Positions 35,589 through 43,517 of a stretch of DNA of 64,000 bases are shown here, one piece after another. Numbering within the stretch: the first letter of the stretch is position 1; each line of letters opens with the position of its first letter. The translations under genes were made by a program, and so were the position numbers. Below the pieces are notes generated by a model. That model searched no databases. It saw nothing but the letters and a program-made list of their open reading frames with translations, and was not told the DNA's origin. Source of the stretch: Chitinophaga lutea (GTDB lineage: Bacteria; Bacteroidota; Bacteroidia; Chitinophagales; Chitinophagaceae); NCBI RefSeq assembly GCF_003813775.1, contig NZ_RPDH01000001.1, positions 930,001 to 994,000 on the forward strand, read 5' to 3'.

Positions 35589-36080
35589 AACGATGGCTGT
35601 TGGTTGCTTATTGCAATTCCGTTGAACTGACATGTATCAATGCATTGCTTAAAGTAACTGATCAATGCTTGTCTATTTTCACCACCTCACCAACCCGAAA
35701 CCCCATCCCTGCATTGACTGCTAACGAAAACGATGGCTATTTTCAACTTTACGGAAACTGCATTTCCAAGGTAACAAACGGGGCACTCTTCACTTTTCAC
35801 CACCTCACCAACCCGAAACCCCATCCCTGCATTGACAGCTGACGGAAACGATGGCTATTTTCAACTTTACGGAAACTGCATTTCCAGGGTAACAAACGGG
35901 CATCTTCACTTTTCACCACCTCACCAACCCGAAACCCCATCCCTGCATTGACAGCTGACGGAAAACTGGTGGTTATTGCCGCTTATTGCGACGTCTACGT
36001 GTTTAACGGGCATCTGCGGAAAGATGGAAACCGGCAGTTGTTTACTGCTTATCACAACGCCAAAGCCGCAACAGCAAACG
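35589..36080. repeat. about 117-bp direct repeats in the pdeM to S24-repressor gap
   Basis: The block CACCACCTCACCAACCCGAA starts at 35680, 35798 and 35914 (spacings 118 and 116). A second landmark, AACGATGGCT, occurs at 35589, 35729 and 35847 with a decayed form near 35964. Two units are nearly identical and the outer ones are degraded. Short open frames across it repeat the same peptide and shift frame, so I do not call a gene. The full gap 35276-36156 (881 bp) holds this array, the hairpin at 35403 and nothing else that I can support. Confidence 0.85.
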
Positions 36081-36156: not shown

Positions 36157-36912
36157 TTAATTCTTCATTTGTTTTTTGAGCATGCTCACCTGTTCCTGCA
36201 GCTGGCTGACCATCCCTGCGAGGTGGTTTACGCTCATACGGTGCTGCTGGCCCATTTTCTGGATCACGGCGTCGGCCTGCCAGATTTCGAGCACTTCGTC
36301 CATATTGACGGGATACGGATCATATTGCGGGTTATCCGATACGAGGGTTACTTTGCTTTTGGAACGGTTGCTTTTTACCACTCTTTTATACACGATACCT
36401 TCGCGGTTGGTCACCACGATGTACGCCTCATTGTTCCGGATATCCTCCCAGCCGTCCACTTTGTGACATACCACCACGGAGCCGGATGGCGTGGGCAACA
36501 TGGAATCACCGGCGATCTCGAACGCGCGGTAACTGCCTGCCCCCAGCATGGGCAGCGTGAAGGTGTTCAGCTCTTCAATGAACTCATCGTCATTGAAGCC
36601 GGCCAGGTAACCGGCCGCCGCTTTGACGGGCACAAACACCACGTTCTGACGTGAGCTGTTGCCCAGCTTCTGCTGACGGCGCCGCTCCAGGAAGCTTTCT
36701 TTCTGCGAGCTCAGGTCGCGGCGCAACAGATCGTCGATGGATACACGAAACATATCGCTGACCTGCTCCAGTACTTCCGTACGGGGCTCCGCCCTTTCTT
36801 CTTCATACGCCCCAAGCAGGGAACGTTTGATGTTGAGGCGGTCGGCAAATTCCTGCTGCGTCCAGCCCTTTTGCTTGCGCAGGTATTTCAGATTACGGCA
36901 AACAGTAGACAT
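36157..36912 (-). CDS. LexA/CI-like repressor: XRE helix-turn-helix plus S24 self-cleaving peptidase domain
   Basis: A 251-residue repressor. Residues 4-62 form an XRE helix-turn-helix (GWTQQEFADRLNIKRSLLGAYE). Residues 93-215 form an S24 domain with the Ala-Gly cleavage pair at 100-101 (VKAAAGYLAG), the nucleophile Ser137 (AGDSMLP) and the general base Lys176 (GIVYKRV). A short coiled-coil tail (SQLQEQVSMLKKQMKN) follows. It should lose repression on RecA-stimulated self-cleavage, like LexA or phage CI. Two CTAA-N5-TTAG palindromes cover its own promoter and two more cover the dinB promoter, so it probably represses itself and dinB. It may be the SOS regulator of this genome, or one of several. 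Confidence 0.92.
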   Translation of the reverse strand: MSTVCRNLKYLRKQKGWTQQEFADRLNIKRSLLGAYEEERAEPRTEVLEQVSDMFRVSIDDLLRRDLSSQKESFLERRRQQKLGNSSRQNVVFVPVKAAAGYLAGFNDDEFIEELNTFTLPMLGAGSYRAFEIAGDSMLPTPSGSVVVCHKVDGWEDIRNNEAYIVVTNREGIVYKRVVKSNRSKSKVTLVSDNPQYDPYPVNMDEVLEIWQADAVIQKMGQQHRMSVNHLAGMVSQLQEQVSMLKKQMKN

Positions 36913-36914
36913 CC

Positions 36915-36950
36915 CTAAATTATTTAGTACAACAATGCTAACAAAATTAG
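36915..36950 (-). promoter_or_regulatory. two CTAA-N5-TTAG operators over the repressor's own promoter
   Basis: CTAAATTATTTAG lies at 36915-36927 and CTAACAAAATTAG at 36938-36950, with centres 23 bp apart. On the minus strand the second contains TAATTTTG, an exact -7 box (36942-36949), and a TTTG lies 21 bp further upstream. A protein bound there would block the promoter. The first operator ends 3 nt from the ATG. Confidence 0.75.
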
Positions 36951-36993
36951 CAATTATTTTTTGTATTTACCAAATTATTCTCCAGGCAAGGCT

Positions 36994-37001
36994 TATTTTT
37001 G
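36994..37001 (+). promoter_or_regulatory. -7 box (TATTTTTG) of the small membrane protein gene
   Basis: TATTTTTG matches TANNTTTG and lies 21 nt before the ATG at 37023, a normal leader length. No well-placed -33 TTTG is seen. Confidence 0.5.
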
Positions 37002-37022
37002 TTCCGGACAAACTCAATTCTT

Positions 37023-37484
37023 ATGCAAACTGTTTTAGGTATTCACTCCATCGTAAGGTGGCTGATACTGCTCTTCGGGCTCTGGGCCGTTATTCGTGCA
37101 ATCATCGGCGTTAGCAGCAAATCCGCTTATGGCGGCGCCGATACCAAGGCCGGTCTTTTTTTCATGATATTCCTCGACATCCAGTTCCTGGTGGGTATTA
37201 TCCTCCTGTTCATCAGCCCCATCACCCAAAGCGCCTTCGGCGACATGGGCGCGGCCATGGGCAATAAAGGCCTCCGCTTTTACACCGTGGAACATGAAAT
37301 ACTGGGATTGGCGGCAGTTGCACTGGTGCACATCGGCCGCAGCAAAATCAAAAAGCTGACGGACGACGCCAGAAAACATAAAACCGCGCTGATCTTCTTC
37401 GGCATCGCAATGGTGCTCATCCTGGCCCTGATCCCCTGGCCGGGCCGCGAAGTAGTGGGCAGAGCGCTGTTCCCTTCTTTCTGA
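37023..37484 (+). CDS. small four-helix membrane protein (cytochrome b/CopD-like)
   Basis: A 153-residue protein with four hydrophobic helices, at about residues 6-24, 38-58, 85-105 and 120-138. Histidines lie in the first and third helices (GIHSIVRW, VEHEILGLAAVALVHIGRSK), which would suit haem binding, so annotations of this family as cytochrome b or CopD-like are reasonable but unproven. I use ATG 37023 (MQTVLGIHS) rather than a TTG at 36999, because the -7 box overlaps the latter. It is divergent from the S24 repressor and ends in a bidirectional terminator. Confidence 0.75.
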   Translation: MQTVLGIHSIVRWLILLFGLWAVIRAIIGVSSKSAYGGADTKAGLFFMIFLDIQFLVGIILLFISPITQSAFGDMGAAMGNKGLRFYTVEHEILGLAAVALVHIGRSKIKKLTDDARKHKTALIFFGIAMVLILALIPWPGREVVGRALFPSF

Positions 37485-37500
37485 TCATTGTCAAACGCAT

Positions 37501-37547
37501 AAAAAAAAGTAAGGACCGTCTATCTGATACGGTCCTTACTTTTTTTA
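37501..37547. terminator. bidirectional terminator
   Basis: An A-rich run and GTAAGGACCGT pair with ACGGTCCTTAC and a T-run around a 9-nt loop, giving a stem of at least 18 bp. It separates the convergent small membrane protein and SdpI-family genes. Confidence 0.95.
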
Positions 37548-37564
37548 TCCCGGGGACGCTTGCC

Positions 37565-38239
37565 TTATCCCTGTGTTTTATAAAATAAACGGTAAGAATA
37601 AATGTACGGCAGCGCAGCCAGCGCGCCGGCCGCAAAAATAAAGAGGAATACGCCGCTCACCACAGTGAGGAACATCCCCGCCACGATGATGACAATCCCC
37701 CCGTACAGCCACAACTTCCCTGCCATATCGTGCGTTTCCACCCAGATATCCACACTTTTCAGCGTCCATGGCGTACGGACACCCACAAAATTATTGGGCT
37801 TCAGATGCCGCAGGTACACGCCGATGAAGGAAACCATCAGCCCCACCCCGATAAACACCCATTTTTCCAGGAAAATACCGCGCCCGACGCTTACGAGGTA
37901 AATAATAACGGTTGTAAACACCGCCAGGTAAATATGTATACGGAATCGTATACGGTAATAATCCCGTATATGCTCCGGCGTCTGCTCGGGATGCACATCG
38001 TCCTCTTCCGGCTTTGGAATGTAACGGAACAAGGCGTAAAGCAGGAAATTGGTAAAAAAGAGGAAAATCATCAGCAACAGGAATTCGCCTTTGTCACCCA
38101 CCCTGTCGGGCACCCCGTTCAGGTTATAGTTGGTGGGAATGGTTTCAGGAAGGCTGCCCCAGATAATGCCGAGATAAATCATGGGGCCAAGCAGCAGGGC
38201 GAGCAGGAGGAACTCCTTGACATAATCCGGATGTTTCAT
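37565..38239 (-). CDS. SdpI/DUF1648-family membrane protein
   Basis: A 224-residue membrane protein. The N-terminal DUF1648 block (IPTNYNLNGVPDRVG after a first helix) is followed by about four further helices. The SdpI-like motif is LKPNNFVGVRTPWTLKS. In Bacillus SdpI gives immunity to the SdpC toxin and titrates a repressor at the membrane; most members elsewhere are of unknown role. The gene is divergent from dinB, with 195 bp between starts. The operator cluster at 38324-38409 lies in that gap and might affect both. Confidence 0.88.
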   Translation of the reverse strand: MKHPDYVKEFLLLALLLGPMIYLGIIWGSLPETIPTNYNLNGVPDRVGDKGEFLLLMIFLFFTNFLLYALFRYIPKPEEDDVHPEQTPEHIRDYYRIRFRIHIYLAVFTTVIIYLVSVGRGIFLEKWVFIGVGLMVSFIGVYLRHLKPNNFVGVRTPWTLKSVDIWVETHDMAGKLWLYGGIVIIVAGMFLTVVSGVFLFIFAAGALAALPYIYSYRLFYKTQG

Positions 38240-38323
38240 GAGTCATATTTTTTTGGTCATTCAACGCCAGGCGTCAACACTCTTTCCGGTAAAAAACCAG
38301 GGGAGGAATGTCACAGCTGGTGG

Positions 38324-38409
38324 ATTAGTTCTCTACTAATACTACATCCTTCGTGCCAAAAAGTTCAAAAATAACATACTAACAACTTTAGCTTTACTAA
38401 TATTTTTAG
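38324..38409 (+). promoter_or_regulatory. operator cluster over the dinB promoter (two CTAA-N5-TTAG sites and an everted pair)
   Basis: CTAACAACTTTAG lies at 38379-38391 and CTAATATTTTTAG at 38397-38409, centres 18 bp apart. The same half-sites occur in the opposite order at 38324-38340 (ATTAGT-TCTCT-ACTAAT). A candidate dinB promoter overlaps: TTTA at 38387, 19 bp, then TATTTTCG at 38410-38417, one mismatch from the -7 consensus. The matching sites at the S24 repressor promoter make that protein the likely binder. Confidence 0.72.
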
Positions 38410-38434: not shown

Positions 38435-39682
38435 ATGCTGCTGGATGGCCAAAGGACGATTGCTCATTTTGACATGGATTGTTTTTTCGTCTCCGTGGAA
38501 TGTCTGAAAGACCGGAGCCTGAAAGGCAAACCGCTCCTCGTGGGCGGGCGGGGCGACCGTGGCGTGGTGGCAGCCTGCAGCTATGAGGCGCGCACCTTCG
38601 GCATTCACTCCGCCATGCCCATGAAAATGGCGCTGCGCTTATGTCCGCATGCGATCGTGCGCGGCGGCGATGCGGAGGAATACAGCCGCTTCTCCGCGGA
38701 AGTGACCGCCATGATCTCCGAGGAAGCGCCTTTGTATGAAAAGTCGTCGATCGACGAGTTTTACCTCGACCTCACCGGCATGGACAAATATTTTGGTACC
38801 ATGAAATGGACCAGCGAATTAAGGCAGAAGATTATCCGGAAAACCCAGCTGCCGATCTCCCTGGGGCTGGCCTCCAATAAAATGGTGTCGAAAGTGGCCA
38901 CCAACGAGGCCAAGCCTAACGGGCAGCTCTCCATTCCCTTTGGGGACGAAAAAACATTCCTCGCCCCCATGGCCGTGGATAAAATCCCGATGGTAGGGAA
39001 AGAAACAGCCGCCCAATTACGGCGGCGCGGCGTGGAAACGGTGAAAACCCTCAGCGAGATCCCCATCGGCCTGCTGGAAGCCTGGCTGGGCAAAAACGGC
39101 ATCTCGTTATGGAAAAAAGCCAACGGGATCGACGAAACGCCCGTCATCCCCTATCACGAACAGAAATCCATTTCAACGGAAAATACTTTTTCCTCCGATA
39201 CGATCGACCTGCAATTCCTGCACAGCGAACTGGTACGGATGACGGAGAAAATCGGTTTCGAGCTGCGGCAGCAGGACCGCCTCACCGGCTGTATCACGGT
39301 AAAAATCCGGTATTCGGATTTCGAAACGGTCACCAAACAGATGAGTATTCCCTATACGTCGAGCGACCATGTGCTGCTGGAAAAAGTGAAGGAACTGTTT
39401 CACAAGCTGTACGACCGCCGTCTGCTCGTACGGCTGATCGGGGTGCGTTTCAGCCATCTCGTGTCCGGCAATTACCAGATCAGCCTGTTCGAGGATACAC
39501 ATGAAATGATTTCACTCTATCAGGCGATCGACAGCATCAAAAGCCAGTTCGGTTGGGAATTCATCATGCGCGGCAGCAGCAGCGCGCCGAGATTCGAGCC
39601 CGGCCTGCAACCGTTTATGAAAGAAAAAGCGCCGGTGAAGGAGGCCGTTTTCAAACGGCGGTATCCGGGTTGGGGAAGATGA
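38435..39682 (+). CDS. dinB: DNA polymerase IV, Y-family translesion polymerase
   Basis: A 415-residue Y-family polymerase that copies past DNA lesions at the cost of errors. The palm motifs IAHFDMDCFFVSVE (metal-binding Asp) and SSIDEFYLDLTG (catalytic Asp-Glu) are intact. The helix-hairpin-helix thumb (VDKIPMVGKETAAQLRRRG) and little-finger domain follow. The length is somewhat greater than that of E. coli DinB (351). The basic C-terminus (AVFKRRYPGWGR) follows a spacer that could carry a clamp-binding peptide. The ATG at 38435 lies 18 nt after the -7 box. Control by the S24 repressor is inferred from shared operators. An 82-bp repeat array begins just after the stop. Confidence 0.95.
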   Translation: MLLDGQRTIAHFDMDCFFVSVECLKDRSLKGKPLLVGGRGDRGVVAACSYEARTFGIHSAMPMKMALRLCPHAIVRGGDAEEYSRFSAEVTAMISEEAPLYEKSSIDEFYLDLTGMDKYFGTMKWTSELRQKIIRKTQLPISLGLASNKMVSKVATNEAKPNGQLSIPFGDEKTFLAPMAVDKIPMVGKETAAQLRRRGVETVKTLSEIPIGLLEAWLGKNGISLWKKANGIDETPVIPYHEQKSISTENTFSSDTIDLQFLHSELVRMTEKIGFELRQQDRLTGCITVKIRYSDFETVTKQMSIPYTSSDHVLLEKVKELFHKLYDRRLLVRLIGVRFSHLVSGNYQISLFEDTHEMISLYQAIDSIKSQFGWEFIMRGSSSAPRFEPGLQPFMKEKAPVKEAVFKRRYPGWGR

Positions 39683-39703: not shown

Positions 39704-40446
39704 GAAATGAAGGTTCGTTCTACCGGTGATATCAGAAACCTGACCGGATAAATGTACTGTGAGAGCAGGCTTTGGATCGGAAGAAATGAAGACGTTCTTT
39801 CTGCCGGTGACGTCAGGAAGGTTCGTCGGGCAAAAGTACAGGGAGACGAGGTTTGGGATTGGAAGAAATGAAGACGTTCTTTCTACCGGCGACATCAGGA
39901 AGGTTCGTCGGGCAAAAGTACAGGGAGACGAGGTTTGGGATTGGAAGAAATGAAGACGTTCTTTCTACCGGCGACATCAGGAAGGTTCGTCGGGCAAAAG
40001 TACAGGTGAGACGAGGTTTGGGATTGGAAGAAATGAAGGCGTTCTTTCTACCGGCGACATCAGGAAGGTTCGTCGGGCAAAAGTACAGTGAGACGAGGTT
40101 TGGGATTGGAAGAAATGAAGGCGTTCTTTCTACCGGCGACATCAGGAAGGTTCGTCGGGCAAAAGTACAGGGAGACGAGGTTTGGGATTGGAAGAAATGA
40201 AAGCGTTCTTTCGTCCAGTGGTAACAGAAAGGTTCGTCGGGCAAAATACAGATGAGACGAGGTTTTGGATTGAAGGAAATGAAGGCGCTCTTTCTGCCGG
40301 TGGCAACAGGAAGATTCTTCGGGAAAAAGTTGGGTGGGACGAGGGTTTGGATTGGAAGACGTAAAGACGATGTTCCTGCCGGTGGCGTCAAAACGAAAGG
40401 ACACAAATAAATTTTCAAGGGATGACATACAACATCAAATAACCGC
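39704..40446. repeat. 82-bp tandem repeat array between dinB and dnaE2
   Basis: The landmark GAAATGAAG followed by a CGTTCTTTCTNCCGGYGAC-like block recurs with repeat starts at 39788, 39870, 39952, 40035, 40117, 40199 and 40281, spacings of 82 or 83 bp, plus a decayed unit at about 39706 and another at about 40364. Inner copies are almost identical. The array fills nearly the whole 771-bp gap. The unit is not a multiple of three, so apparent open frames on both strands only restate the repeat in changing frames. Each unit carries TACTTTTG on the minus strand, an exact -7 word, but no matching -33 element. Confidence 0.93.
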
Positions 40447-40453
40447 AGCATTC

Positions 40454-43438
40454 ATGTACTTAAACTGCAAATCATGGTTCAGCCTGCGCTATGGCACCAT
40501 CCGCACCACGGAGCTCGTGGCGCTGGCGCGGGAAAACGGCATCACGGCAATGGCGCTGACCAATATCAACGCCACTACCGACAGCTGGTTCTTCGTGCTC
40601 GAATGCCAGAAAAACGGCATTAAGCCCATCCTCGGCGTGGAGTTCCGCAACGGGCCGGATTTCAAATACATCCTACTGGCCCGCAATATGGAAGGCTGGA
40701 TGCATATCAACCAATTCCTTTCCCGGCACCTGCAGCAGGATATTCCATTCCCCGATAAAGCCCCCTTGCTGGAGCACACTTTTGTGATCTATGCCTGGGG
40801 CGCCCGTCACCCGGACAGCCTGGCGGCCCACGAGCTGGCAGGCATCCGGCCGCGGGAAATCAGCAAACTGTTCCGCGTAGACACCAAAAAGTACGCCCGC
40901 AAACTGGTCATCCTCCAGCCCCTCACCTTTTCGGACCGCGAAGGGCACGAACTGCATACCGTGCTCCGGGCAGTCGACAATAACATGCTCATCAGCCAGC
41001 TGCCCGTCTCGGAAACAGCCGGCATCGACGAAGGCTTCATCCCCCCGCTGCAACTGCTGGAACATTTTAAAGAGCTCCCGCACATCGTGCAAAACACCAT
41101 CCGGGTGATGCATGAATGCGACATGTACCTTCAGCCGGGGCAGCACCTCACCAAAAAACGGTTCACCCACAGCCGTGAAGCGGATCGCGAACTGCTGCGC
41201 GACCTTGCCCTGGAAGGCATGGGCTACCGCTATCCGCCGTACGGCACGGAAGAAGCGCGGCGCAGGATCGAAAAAGAACTGGACATCATCAACACCCACG
41301 ATTTTAACGCCTATTTCCTCATCACCTGGGACATTATCCGCTACGCCAAACATCGCGGCTTTTTCCATGTGGGGCGTGGCAGCGGCGCCAATTCCATCGT
41401 GGCGTACTGCCTCGGCATCACCAATGTGGATCCCATTGCGCTCGATCTGTATTTCGAACGTTTCCTCAATCCGTACCGCACCTCGCCGCCTGATTTCGAC
41501 CTGGATTTTTCGTGGCGCGACCGAGATGATATCACCCGCTATATTTTCGAGAAATACACGAGCGACCATACCGCCCTGCTAGGCACCGTATCCACCTTCC
41601 AGACCAACTCCATCGTGCGCGAGCTGGGCAAGGTGTATGGGCTGCCGAAGGGCGAGATAGATAAAATCCTGGAACACCCTTACGAAGTGAAACTCGGTGG
41701 CGACAATATCCACCAGCGCATCATCCGTTTCGGGAAAATGCTGGTGCAGAACCACGAAGGCGAAACGCAGCCCTACCCTAACCAGCTGAGCATTCACGCC
41801 GGCGGCATCCTGATCAGCGAAGCCCCCATTTACCGGCACTGCACCACGCACCTGCCGCCCAAAGGATTCCCCACCGCGCAGCTCGACATGCACATGGCCG
41901 AAGCCATCGGCCTGTACAAGTTCGATATCCTGAGCCAGCGCGGCCTCGGGCACATCCGCGATACGATGGATTATGTCCGGGAAAACAAAGGCATCACCTT
42001 CGATATTCACGACAGCAAACCTTTCATGGAAGACGAAGCGGTGAAAAAAAACCTGCAGACCGTCAACACCATCGGCTGCTTTTACATCGAGTCTCCCGCC
42101 ATGCGACAATTGCTGCTCAAACTCCGCTGCAGCGATTACATCACACTCGTGGCCGCCAGTTCCATTATCCGTCCCGGTGTGGCGCAGGCCGGCATGATGC
42201 GGCAGTATGTGTACAACTACAATCACCAGGACGAAGTGAAATACCTGCACCCGGTGATGGAAAGCCTCATGAAAGAAACCTTCGGCGTGATGGTGTACCA
42301 GGAAGACGTGATCAAAGTGGCGCATTATTTCGCCGACCTCGACCTGGCGGATGCGGACATCCTGCGAAGGGCTATGGCAGGGAAGTACCGCGGTCAAAAC
42401 AACTTCGAAAAAATAAAGCAGCAGTTTTTCGACAACTGCGAACGGCTGGGCCGCGACCCGGTGGTGAGCCAGGAAGTATGGCGGCAGATTTCCAGCTTCG
42501 CCAACTTCTCCTTTTCGAAAGCCCACTCCGCCAGCTTCGCCGTGGAAAGTTACCAGAGCCTCTATCTCAAAACCTATTTCCCGGCAGAGTTCATGGTGGC
42601 GGTGATCAATAATTTCGGGGGATTCTATAACCGGGAACTGTATTTCCGGGAACTCCAGAAAACGGGCGTCCAGCTCCATCCGCCGTGTATGAACAACAGC
42701 CTCTACGCCACCCGTATCACCGGCAACGACGTGTACACCGGCTTTATCCACGTGGACCGGCTGGAGCAGGCCTTCATCGAAAAAGCGCTCGCAGAACGCG
42801 CGCTCAACGGGCCTTACACCGGCCTCGAAAATTTCATGGACCGCACCAGCCCCAAACCCGAGCAACTGGAGATTTTAATCCGTATCGGTGCATTCAAATT
42901 CACCGGTCTCACCAAAAAACAATTGCTGTGGGAAAGCTCCGGCCTGCTGAAACTTTCCGGCAGCGACGACTATAACCCGCGCCTGTTCAGCGAGCCTTCG
43001 CGCGACTGGCAGCTGCCCCACCTCGCATACCACCGCCACGAAGACGCGTTCGATGAAATCGAACTGCTCGGCTTCCCGCTGTGCTCTCCGTTTGATGTAC
43101 TGGAGCACGACACCAGCGGCTACCTCCCCGTGGCCGCCATGAAAGAGCATCAGGGGCAGCATGTAAAAATGCTCGGCTACTTCGTGACCATCAAACACGT
43201 ATACACCAGCAAAAACGAGCCTATGTGCTTCGGCACCTTCCTCGACCGGGACGGAGGTTTCCTCGATACGGTGCATTTCCCCGACAGCCTGCGCAAATAT
43301 CCTTTCATGAAGGGCGGCTTCTACATACTCGAAGGCCGTATCACGGAAGAATTCGGGGTATTCACGCTGGATGTGAGTTATATGCGGAAGATCGGGTACT
43401 TCGAAGACAAGGCCCCGGCGTTGAAAAATGCGATGTAA
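40454..43438 (+). CDS. DnaE2-like error-prone DNA polymerase III alpha subunit
   Basis: A 994-residue C-family polymerase, shorter than replicative DnaE and close in size to DnaE2. The catalytic region is intact (FHVGRGSGANS, then PPDFDLDF with the metal-binding aspartates). The helix-hairpin-helix and C-terminal OB fold are present. The N-terminal PHP domain has lost its usual ligands: CKSWFSLRYG stands where HSxYSLLDG is expected and LTNINATT where LTDHGNM is expected, so it should lack metal-dependent nuclease activity. I use ATG 40454 (MYLNCKSWFS); codons upstream belong to the 82-bp repeats. Pairing with dinB and the S24 repressor suggests damage-induced mutagenesis. Its 3' end is duplicated. 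Confidence 0.9.
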   Translation: MYLNCKSWFSLRYGTIRTTELVALARENGITAMALTNINATTDSWFFVLECQKNGIKPILGVEFRNGPDFKYILLARNMEGWMHINQFLSRHLQQDIPFPDKAPLLEHTFVIYAWGARHPDSLAAHELAGIRPREISKLFRVDTKKYARKLVILQPLTFSDREGHELHTVLRAVDNNMLISQLPVSETAGIDEGFIPPLQLLEHFKELPHIVQNTIRVMHECDMYLQPGQHLTKKRFTHSREADRELLRDLALEGMGYRYPPYGTEEARRRIEKELDIINTHDFNAYFLITWDIIRYAKHRGFFHVGRGSGANSIVAYCLGITNVDPIALDLYFERFLNPYRTSPPDFDLDFSWRDRDDITRYIFEKYTSDHTALLGTVSTFQTNSIVRELGKVYGLPKGEIDKILEHPYEVKLGGDNIHQRIIRFGKMLVQNHEGETQPYPNQLSIHAGGILISEAPIYRHCTTHLPPKGFPTAQLDMHMAEAIGLYKFDILSQRGLGHIRDTMDYVRENKGITFDIHDSKPFMEDEAVKKNLQTVNTIGCFYIESPAMRQLLLKLRCSDYITLVAASSIIRPGVAQAGMMRQYVYNYNHQDEVKYLHPVMESLMKETFGVMVYQEDVIKVAHYFADLDLADADILRRAMAGKYRGQNNFEKIKQQFFDNCERLGRDPVVSQEVWRQISSFANFSFSKAHSASFAVESYQSLYLKTYFPAEFMVAVINNFGGFYNRELYFRELQKTGVQLHPPCMNNSLYATRITGNDVYTGFIHVDRLEQAFIEKALAERALNGPYTGLENFMDRTSPKPEQLEILIRIGAFKFTGLTKKQLLWESSGLLKLSGSDDYNPRLFSEPSRDWQLPHLAYHRHEDAFDEIELLGFPLCSPFDVLEHDTSGYLPVAAMKEHQGQHVKMLGYFVTIKHVYTSKNEPMCFGTFLDRDGGFLDTVHFPDSLRKYPFMKGGFYILEGRITEEFGVFTLDVSYMRKIGYFEDKAPALKNAM

Positions 43439-43517
43439 CCCACAATGGATGCAAGTTGCATGCGGGAGACCGGATACTTCGAAGACAAGGCCCCGGCGTT
43501 GAAAGATGCGATGTAAA
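43370..43517 (+). repeat. 78-bp tandem duplication of the dnaE2 3' end
   Basis: The last 23 codons with the stop (from 43370) are repeated from 43448 at a spacing of 78 bp. By my alignment 8 of 69 positions differ and all eight are transitions. Copy 2 still reads GYFEDKAPALKDAM then TAA in its own frame but lies after the gene's stop. A terminator follows directly. Confidence 0.92.

Follow-up and report, generated by a model that had tools for sequence, protein, structure and literature searches.

CTAA-N5-TTAG sites at the S24 repressor and dinB promoters of Chitinophaga lutea match the known Bacteroidota SOS operator

The window, i.e. the whole 64-kb stretch of DNA that was analysed, carries an S24-type repressor gene and two DNA polymerase genes with the following features:

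36157..36912, minus strand: repressor gene, 251 aa, with an HTH_3 N-terminal domain, a Peptidase_S24 domain and a predicted C-terminal heptad helix at about 228-250
36915..36927, no strand: start-proximal repressor operator site, exact match to CTAA-N5-TTAG, conserved in relatives
36938..36950, no strand: start-distal repressor operator site, CTAA-N5-TTAG, enclosing the -7-like box TAATTTTG
36949 down to 36942, minus strand: -7-like element TAATTTTG of the repressor promoter, within the site 36938-36950 and with TTTG 21 nt upstream
37023..37484, plus strand: divergent neighbour gene without Pfam match (open frame listed from 36999), sharing an intergenic region with the repressor gene
38379..38391, no strand: dinB operator site 1, CTAA-N5-TTAG, enclosing the TTTA -33-like element 38387-38390
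38397..38409, no strand: dinB operator site 2, CTAA-N5-TTAG, abutting the -7-like box TATTTTCG (from 38410)
38435..39682, plus strand: dinB-type Y-family polymerase gene, 415 aa (IMS 2.6e-46; DNA polymerase IV models)
40412..43438, plus strand: DnaE-type DNA polymerase III alpha gene, start unsettled, without an exact operator of its own

All four exact sites lie where the first-pass annotation had placed them, and its impression that the window holds no further copies is right for exact matches; four copies with one mismatch are found elsewhere in the window. The sites are 23 bp apart (start to start) at the repressor promoter and 18 bp apart at the dinB promoter. Windows simulated with a first-order model contained on average 0.40 exact sites and at most 3 in 300 runs, as compared to the four observed. 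Two sites in the repressor intergenic region did not occur in any of 20,000 simulations, and the simulated fraction for two sites in the dinB upstream region was 0.0001. A chance origin of the sites is ruled out by these simulations together with the conservation at orthologous promoters.

The promoter consensus used here is TTTG/TAnnTTTG. It had been proposed that in each promoter a site overlaps a -7 or -33 element, and this holds: the -7-like box of the repressor lies inside a site, and at dinB the TTTA is part of site 1 and precedes by 19 nt a -7-like box which has one mismatch to the consensus and abuts site 2. Counting the own one, 86 upstream regions contain an exact site, and in only nine of them does a strict TAnnTTTG box overlap or abut the operator. 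For the looser TA-N1..3-TTTG, a pattern picked only after the strict-box result was known, the number is 42 of 86 versus 9.1 expected. A scan for sigma-70 promoters was uninformative. Repression would act by blocking the promoter.

The repressor matches the Pfam profiles HTH_3 (1e-13) and Peptidase_S24 (2.1e-10), and it is the only Peptidase_S24 match at E 0.001 in the 6.61-Mb genome. Pfam gave no match to the winged-helix N-terminal domain of LexA, which we take to be PF01726; HTH_3 was found instead. The Ala100-Gly101 cleavage pair and the Ser137/Lys176 dyad reported from the first reading are present at these positions and are invariant in an alignment of 28 sequences. In an AlphaFold model (mean pLDDT 75.2, pTM 0.47) the N-terminal region is entirely helical, and the C-terminal domain, rich in strands, is followed by a terminal helix at 228-250 with a block pLDDT of 74-75 over 231-250. 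Counting only sequences with letters at the given position, hydrophobic residues occupy the helix positions 228, 231, 235, 238, 242 and 245 in 100% of 87-88 close sequences and in 90-100% of 10-12 diverged ones; at the intervening positions of the close group their share is mostly near 0%, with the exception of 234. As judged from its sequence, this hydrophobic pattern is a coiled-coil heptad. In a listing of 120 out of 7775 homologues, a Chitinophaga alhagiae protein (98% identity) is the nearest entry with a species name, and several of the Chitinophaga proteins are already annotated as LexA family transcriptional regulators.

Sequences similar to the divergent neighbour gene were found near the repressor in three relatives (G006 and G106, 58-63%; G054, 42%) and none near the repressor at two other loci (L040, L041). 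The dinB and dnaE genes are probably transcribed jointly. Between them, an 82-bp unit is repeated in tandem about 7.4 times (39750-40359), and shorter tandem repeats are present at 35676-35964 (118-bp unit, 2.5 copies) and at the 3′ end of dnaE (43368-43516; 78-bp unit, 1.9 copies).

Two operators, CTAA-N5-TTAG and GGA-N5-TCC, have been described for a new family of S24 repressors which runs the SOS response of Bacteroidetes (Sanchez-Osuna et al. 2021, PMC8565304, cited here from the part of its text available to us). Because the same motif was published as SOS operator in 2021, the observation made in the window is correct but not new: the sites look like the known Bacteroidota SOS operator. 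For P. actiniarum, an EMSA that included arm and spacer mutants demonstrated binding to CTAA-N5-TTAG, and RT-qPCR demonstrated that mitomycin C is an inducer. The Chitinophagaceae are named among the families with large CTAA-N5-TTAG regulons (PMC8565304). A damage-responsive regulon with an operator unlike the LexA boxes of E. coli or Bacillus, as suggested by the first-pass annotation, is thus what the available text reports for the same motif and repressor type in related species.

By the published description, the repressor resembles LexA of the CTAA-N5-TTAG group (P. actiniarum WP_025606010.1) in its operator sequence, in having one or more sites per promoter, and in combining HTH_3 (PF01381, the N-terminal domain of the Bacteroidetes non-canonical LexA) and S24 domains with Ala-Gly, Ser and Lys and a C-terminal helix. 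All of these features, including the motif in the own promoter, are observed in our protein and its gene, the helix as a prediction of the structure model; the positions and the conservation of the sites and the genes behind them are observed as well. The motif also precedes the core SOS genes recA, dinB, imuA, PA0069 radical-SAM, radC and parE, and the published regulon likewise comprises recA, dinB, imuA-imuB-dnaE2, splB, radC and topoisomerase IV; we read the PA0069-type radical-SAM gene as corresponding to SplB (COG1533) of that study. No essential difference from this group was found in the available description (PMC8565304). The GGA-N5-TCC group (S. agarivorans), primarily from Flavobacteriaceae, has the same protein architecture and role but another operator. 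Classical LexA (E. coli, Bacillus) shares the repression logic and the S24 domain, whereas the repressor studied here has a different operator and an HTH_3-type all-helical N-terminal domain; the classical winged-helix N-terminal domain is absent. PMC8565304 gives the function of the C-terminal helix as unknown, and its available part does not use the term coiled coil. Relative to that part, our additions are an orphan gene, the near-fixed spacing of paired sites, the heptad pattern and a possible hand-over of imuA to a class-B paralogue (see below).

A repressor match was found in 110 of 117 genomes of the family (own included). Every listed relative with an E-value no higher than 1.1e-65 was taken as a close orthologue, 89 in number, and inspected for sites within 150 bp. 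The expectation that the motif is conserved upstream of repressor orthologues was confirmed in 85 of these 89; the four loci without an exact site are L034, L074, L099 and L108. Two or more exact sites are present in 46 of the 89, and 44 of these 46 have a spacing of 22-24 bp. Of eleven control palindromes one matches at 4 of the 89 loci, three at one locus and seven at none.

The same expectation for dinB held in part. The matches listed contained 30 dinB loci, and with the own copy set aside an exact site precedes 9 of 29, as compared to four control palindromes matching 1/29 each. The remaining 20 lack it, and 17 of them were followed upstream: one lies at a contig end, two have no dnaE match, and 14 are preceded by dnaE. 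In all 14 dnaE-dinB units the leading dnaE has an exact site no more than 250 bp upstream (two controls match 1/14 each). This leaves 6 of the 20 site-less dinB genes unaccounted for.

A genome-wide enrichment of the motif was not found. As only 27 exact sites exist in the genome, compared to 65 for the pattern read backward, the motif is scarce overall and unenriched. It is also rarer than the backward control in 26 of 28 relatives counted, the exceptions being G005 and G013. The 27 sites fall at 24 places, and 10 of them, at 7 places, lie upstream of genes on the published regulon list, namely the repressor gene, dinB, the PA0069-type radical-SAM gene (two exact sites), recA, imuA (followed by an imuB-like gene), radC and parE. 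At the other 17 places there is no published regulon gene, and some of these sites lie within genes. By position only, others are near a dam-type methyltransferase gene, a peroxiredoxin gene, a 2′-5′ RNA ligase-like gene, greA and small HTH genes. The Dam-family adenine methyltransferase gene (L006:595-1485; G000:C1:1093930-1094817) starts 22 bp downstream of an exact-site centre; considered as a conserved regulon member, it has no close orthologue in 58 relatives (best identity 41%). The peroxiredoxin (AhpC/TSA) gene (L026:2043-2597; G000:C3, site at 718398) starts 36 bp from a site centre. A second, distant DinB-type polymerase (34% identity) is encoded at G000:C2:1146903-1147919.

In the genus, an exact site precedes the PA0069 radical-SAM gene in 21/21 cases (two sites in 20, mostly 21 bp apart), parE in 21/21 (one control palindrome, through one arm, matches 6/21) and imuA in 13/15 (two sites in 9). 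In the other families of the order, where the target promoters were compared independently of their repressors, the site is found at 2 of 6 PA0069 loci and 0 of 8 parE loci, with one control matching 1/8; one weak PA0069 locus and two parE matches without loci were set aside. Upstream of recA, the exact site is present in 27 of the 30 genomes examined that encode a close orthologue of the repressor (two controls match 1/30 each) and in 0 of 25 genomes with a diverged repressor match only or none (one control matches 2/25). The 30 genomes were drawn from the 89 in approximate order of handle number, and two further genomes were dropped as their upstream sequence was lacking. One of the 25, G082, has a diverged repressor which retains an exact site in its own promoter (L118).

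These data bear on the possibility of a local or prophage-derived repressor that controls itself and dinB only, with no global SOS response. Phage repressor families do match the protein (phrog_4, 4.6e-27), and some diverged paralogues in relatives lie next to a polymerase cassette, without a paired operator of theirs at recA. However, the exact sites before recA, imuA, the PA0069 radical-SAM gene, radC and parE, and a recA site which tracks the close orthologue, make such a restricted role very improbable. That the sites are due to chance or to another regulator with the same palindrome is hardly credible, for although many copies in the genome lie in genes or beside unrelated genes, the conservation at orthologous promoters far exceeds that of control palindromes, and the diverged repressors mostly have different palindromes at the equivalent place.

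We therefore consider it almost certain that the 251-aa S24 repressor is the SOS master repressor of this genome and belongs to the CTAA-N5-TTAG type of Bacteroidota non-canonical LexA. By analogy to published relatives, it would bind CTAA-N5-TTAG palindromes, often paired and overlapping or abutting promoter elements, and so block transcription of its own gene, of dinB (probably together with dnaE) and of other repair genes. Upon DNA damage, RecA filaments would induce the repressor to cleave itself at Ala100-Gly101, with Ser137 and Lys176 as the catalytic dyad, and the regulon would be released. In this way a published SOS operator was recovered from a blind reading of raw sequence, and the comparison indicates that the operator holds in a genus with a compact regulon. 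Since the system is known, its interest as a discovery is low; that of the extensions is moderate, as they offer a functionally uncharacterised protein family that may be damage-inducible, and a natural series of repressors in which recognition segment and operator change together and the paired layout stays.

The first extension concerns an orphan gene of 224 aa (L025:2041-2715; G000:C3:585120-585791), which starts 34 bp from an exact-site centre. Its product has no match in Pfam, NCBIfam or PADLOC and a weak one to a PHROG of unknown function (3.6e-05). A protein search returned 11 proteins including the query, and the three named ones are from Chitinophaga. In a sample of 58 relatives, made up of the genus and other families of the order, the gene was found in 14 of 35 and 0 of 23 genomes, respectively. 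The exact operator is located within 200 bp upstream in 12 of the 14 relatives of the genus, and no control palindrome matches. In the other two (L243, L244) the orphan gene follows another gene, and two sites and one site, respectively, lie about 480-510 bp upstream, near the start of that gene. The leading gene in L244 encodes an S24 domain and no HTH and is therefore UmuD-like. In L246 the second gene downstream of the orphan encodes SRAP. The structure model is of low confidence (mean pLDDT 66.8) and gave 0 PDB fold matches at E 0.001 or better. As a guess, the product might be a modulator of damage tolerance.

The second extension comes from twenty diverged repressors (31-39% identity), 19 of which lack CTAA-N5-TTAG. 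By eye, 12 were assigned on the alignment to class B and five to class C (L127, L129, L131, L133, L136); L118, which has the CTAA motif, L120 and L124 were left out. Eleven of the 12 class-B promoters (L125 misfits) contain a pair of 15-bp palindromes near GTTAYYAATAATAAC exactly 23 bp apart. The own promoters of class C have weaker TCCAA-N5-TTGGA-like palindromes, 18 bp apart in three of the five. The motif scores were 134.5 for class B (34.0-44.6 in five shuffles) and 75.9 for class C (20.5-30.7 in shuffles), a comparison somewhat favouring the real searches, as the shuffled ones had fewer restarts and iterations. In the close group the recognition segment reads KRSLLGAYEE or near; much of class B has a SKLNAHEN or KLAALES type instead, and much of class C has GRTTIANYE.

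At dinB the class-B pair was found at one of four loci (G056, where dinB is adjacent to the repressor). At recA no pair was found in 10 loci, all from genomes that lack a close orthologue; two of these genomes (G082, G099) have repressors outside classes B and C, and two of the 10 loci have single matches with scores of 10.4 and 14.7 (training sites 10.8-19.2).

Both genus imuA genes without CTAA-N5-TTAG (L353 in G117, L355 in G127) are arranged head to head with a repressor gene whose product best matches class-B proteins (65% and 51%). In place of CTAA-N5-TTAG they have paired class-B-like sites 23 bp apart, with scores of 15.9 and 18.5 at the former and 9.4 and 14.3 at the latter; among the remaining imuA loci (15 in all) one has a single match. 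Both genomes retain exact CTAA sites at PA0069 and parE (among the 21/21 each), thus the global operator persists there. This possible hand-over of imuA agrees with the published model, in which repressors duplicate and their motifs diverge, as well as with the case of E. anophelis, as given in the available part of PMC8565304. The diverged regulator of E. anophelis (TTAC-AAATT-GTAA) resembles class B in that the repressor gene lies opposite an error-prone polymerase gene and has its own palindrome. The class-B sites differ from it in three respects: they are GTTAYYAATAATAAC-like and form pairs with a spacing of 23 bp, they occur in the family of the window, and in two genomes they lie beside imuA.

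Taken jointly, the reading that the orphan family is a new SOS effector and that part of the regulon has passed to private diverged paralogues with a changed recognition segment has, in our opinion, about an even chance of being right. As both the pair spacing of about 23 bp and the heptad helix are kept through the operator switch, they suggest that the C-terminal helix couples two dimers on paired sites.
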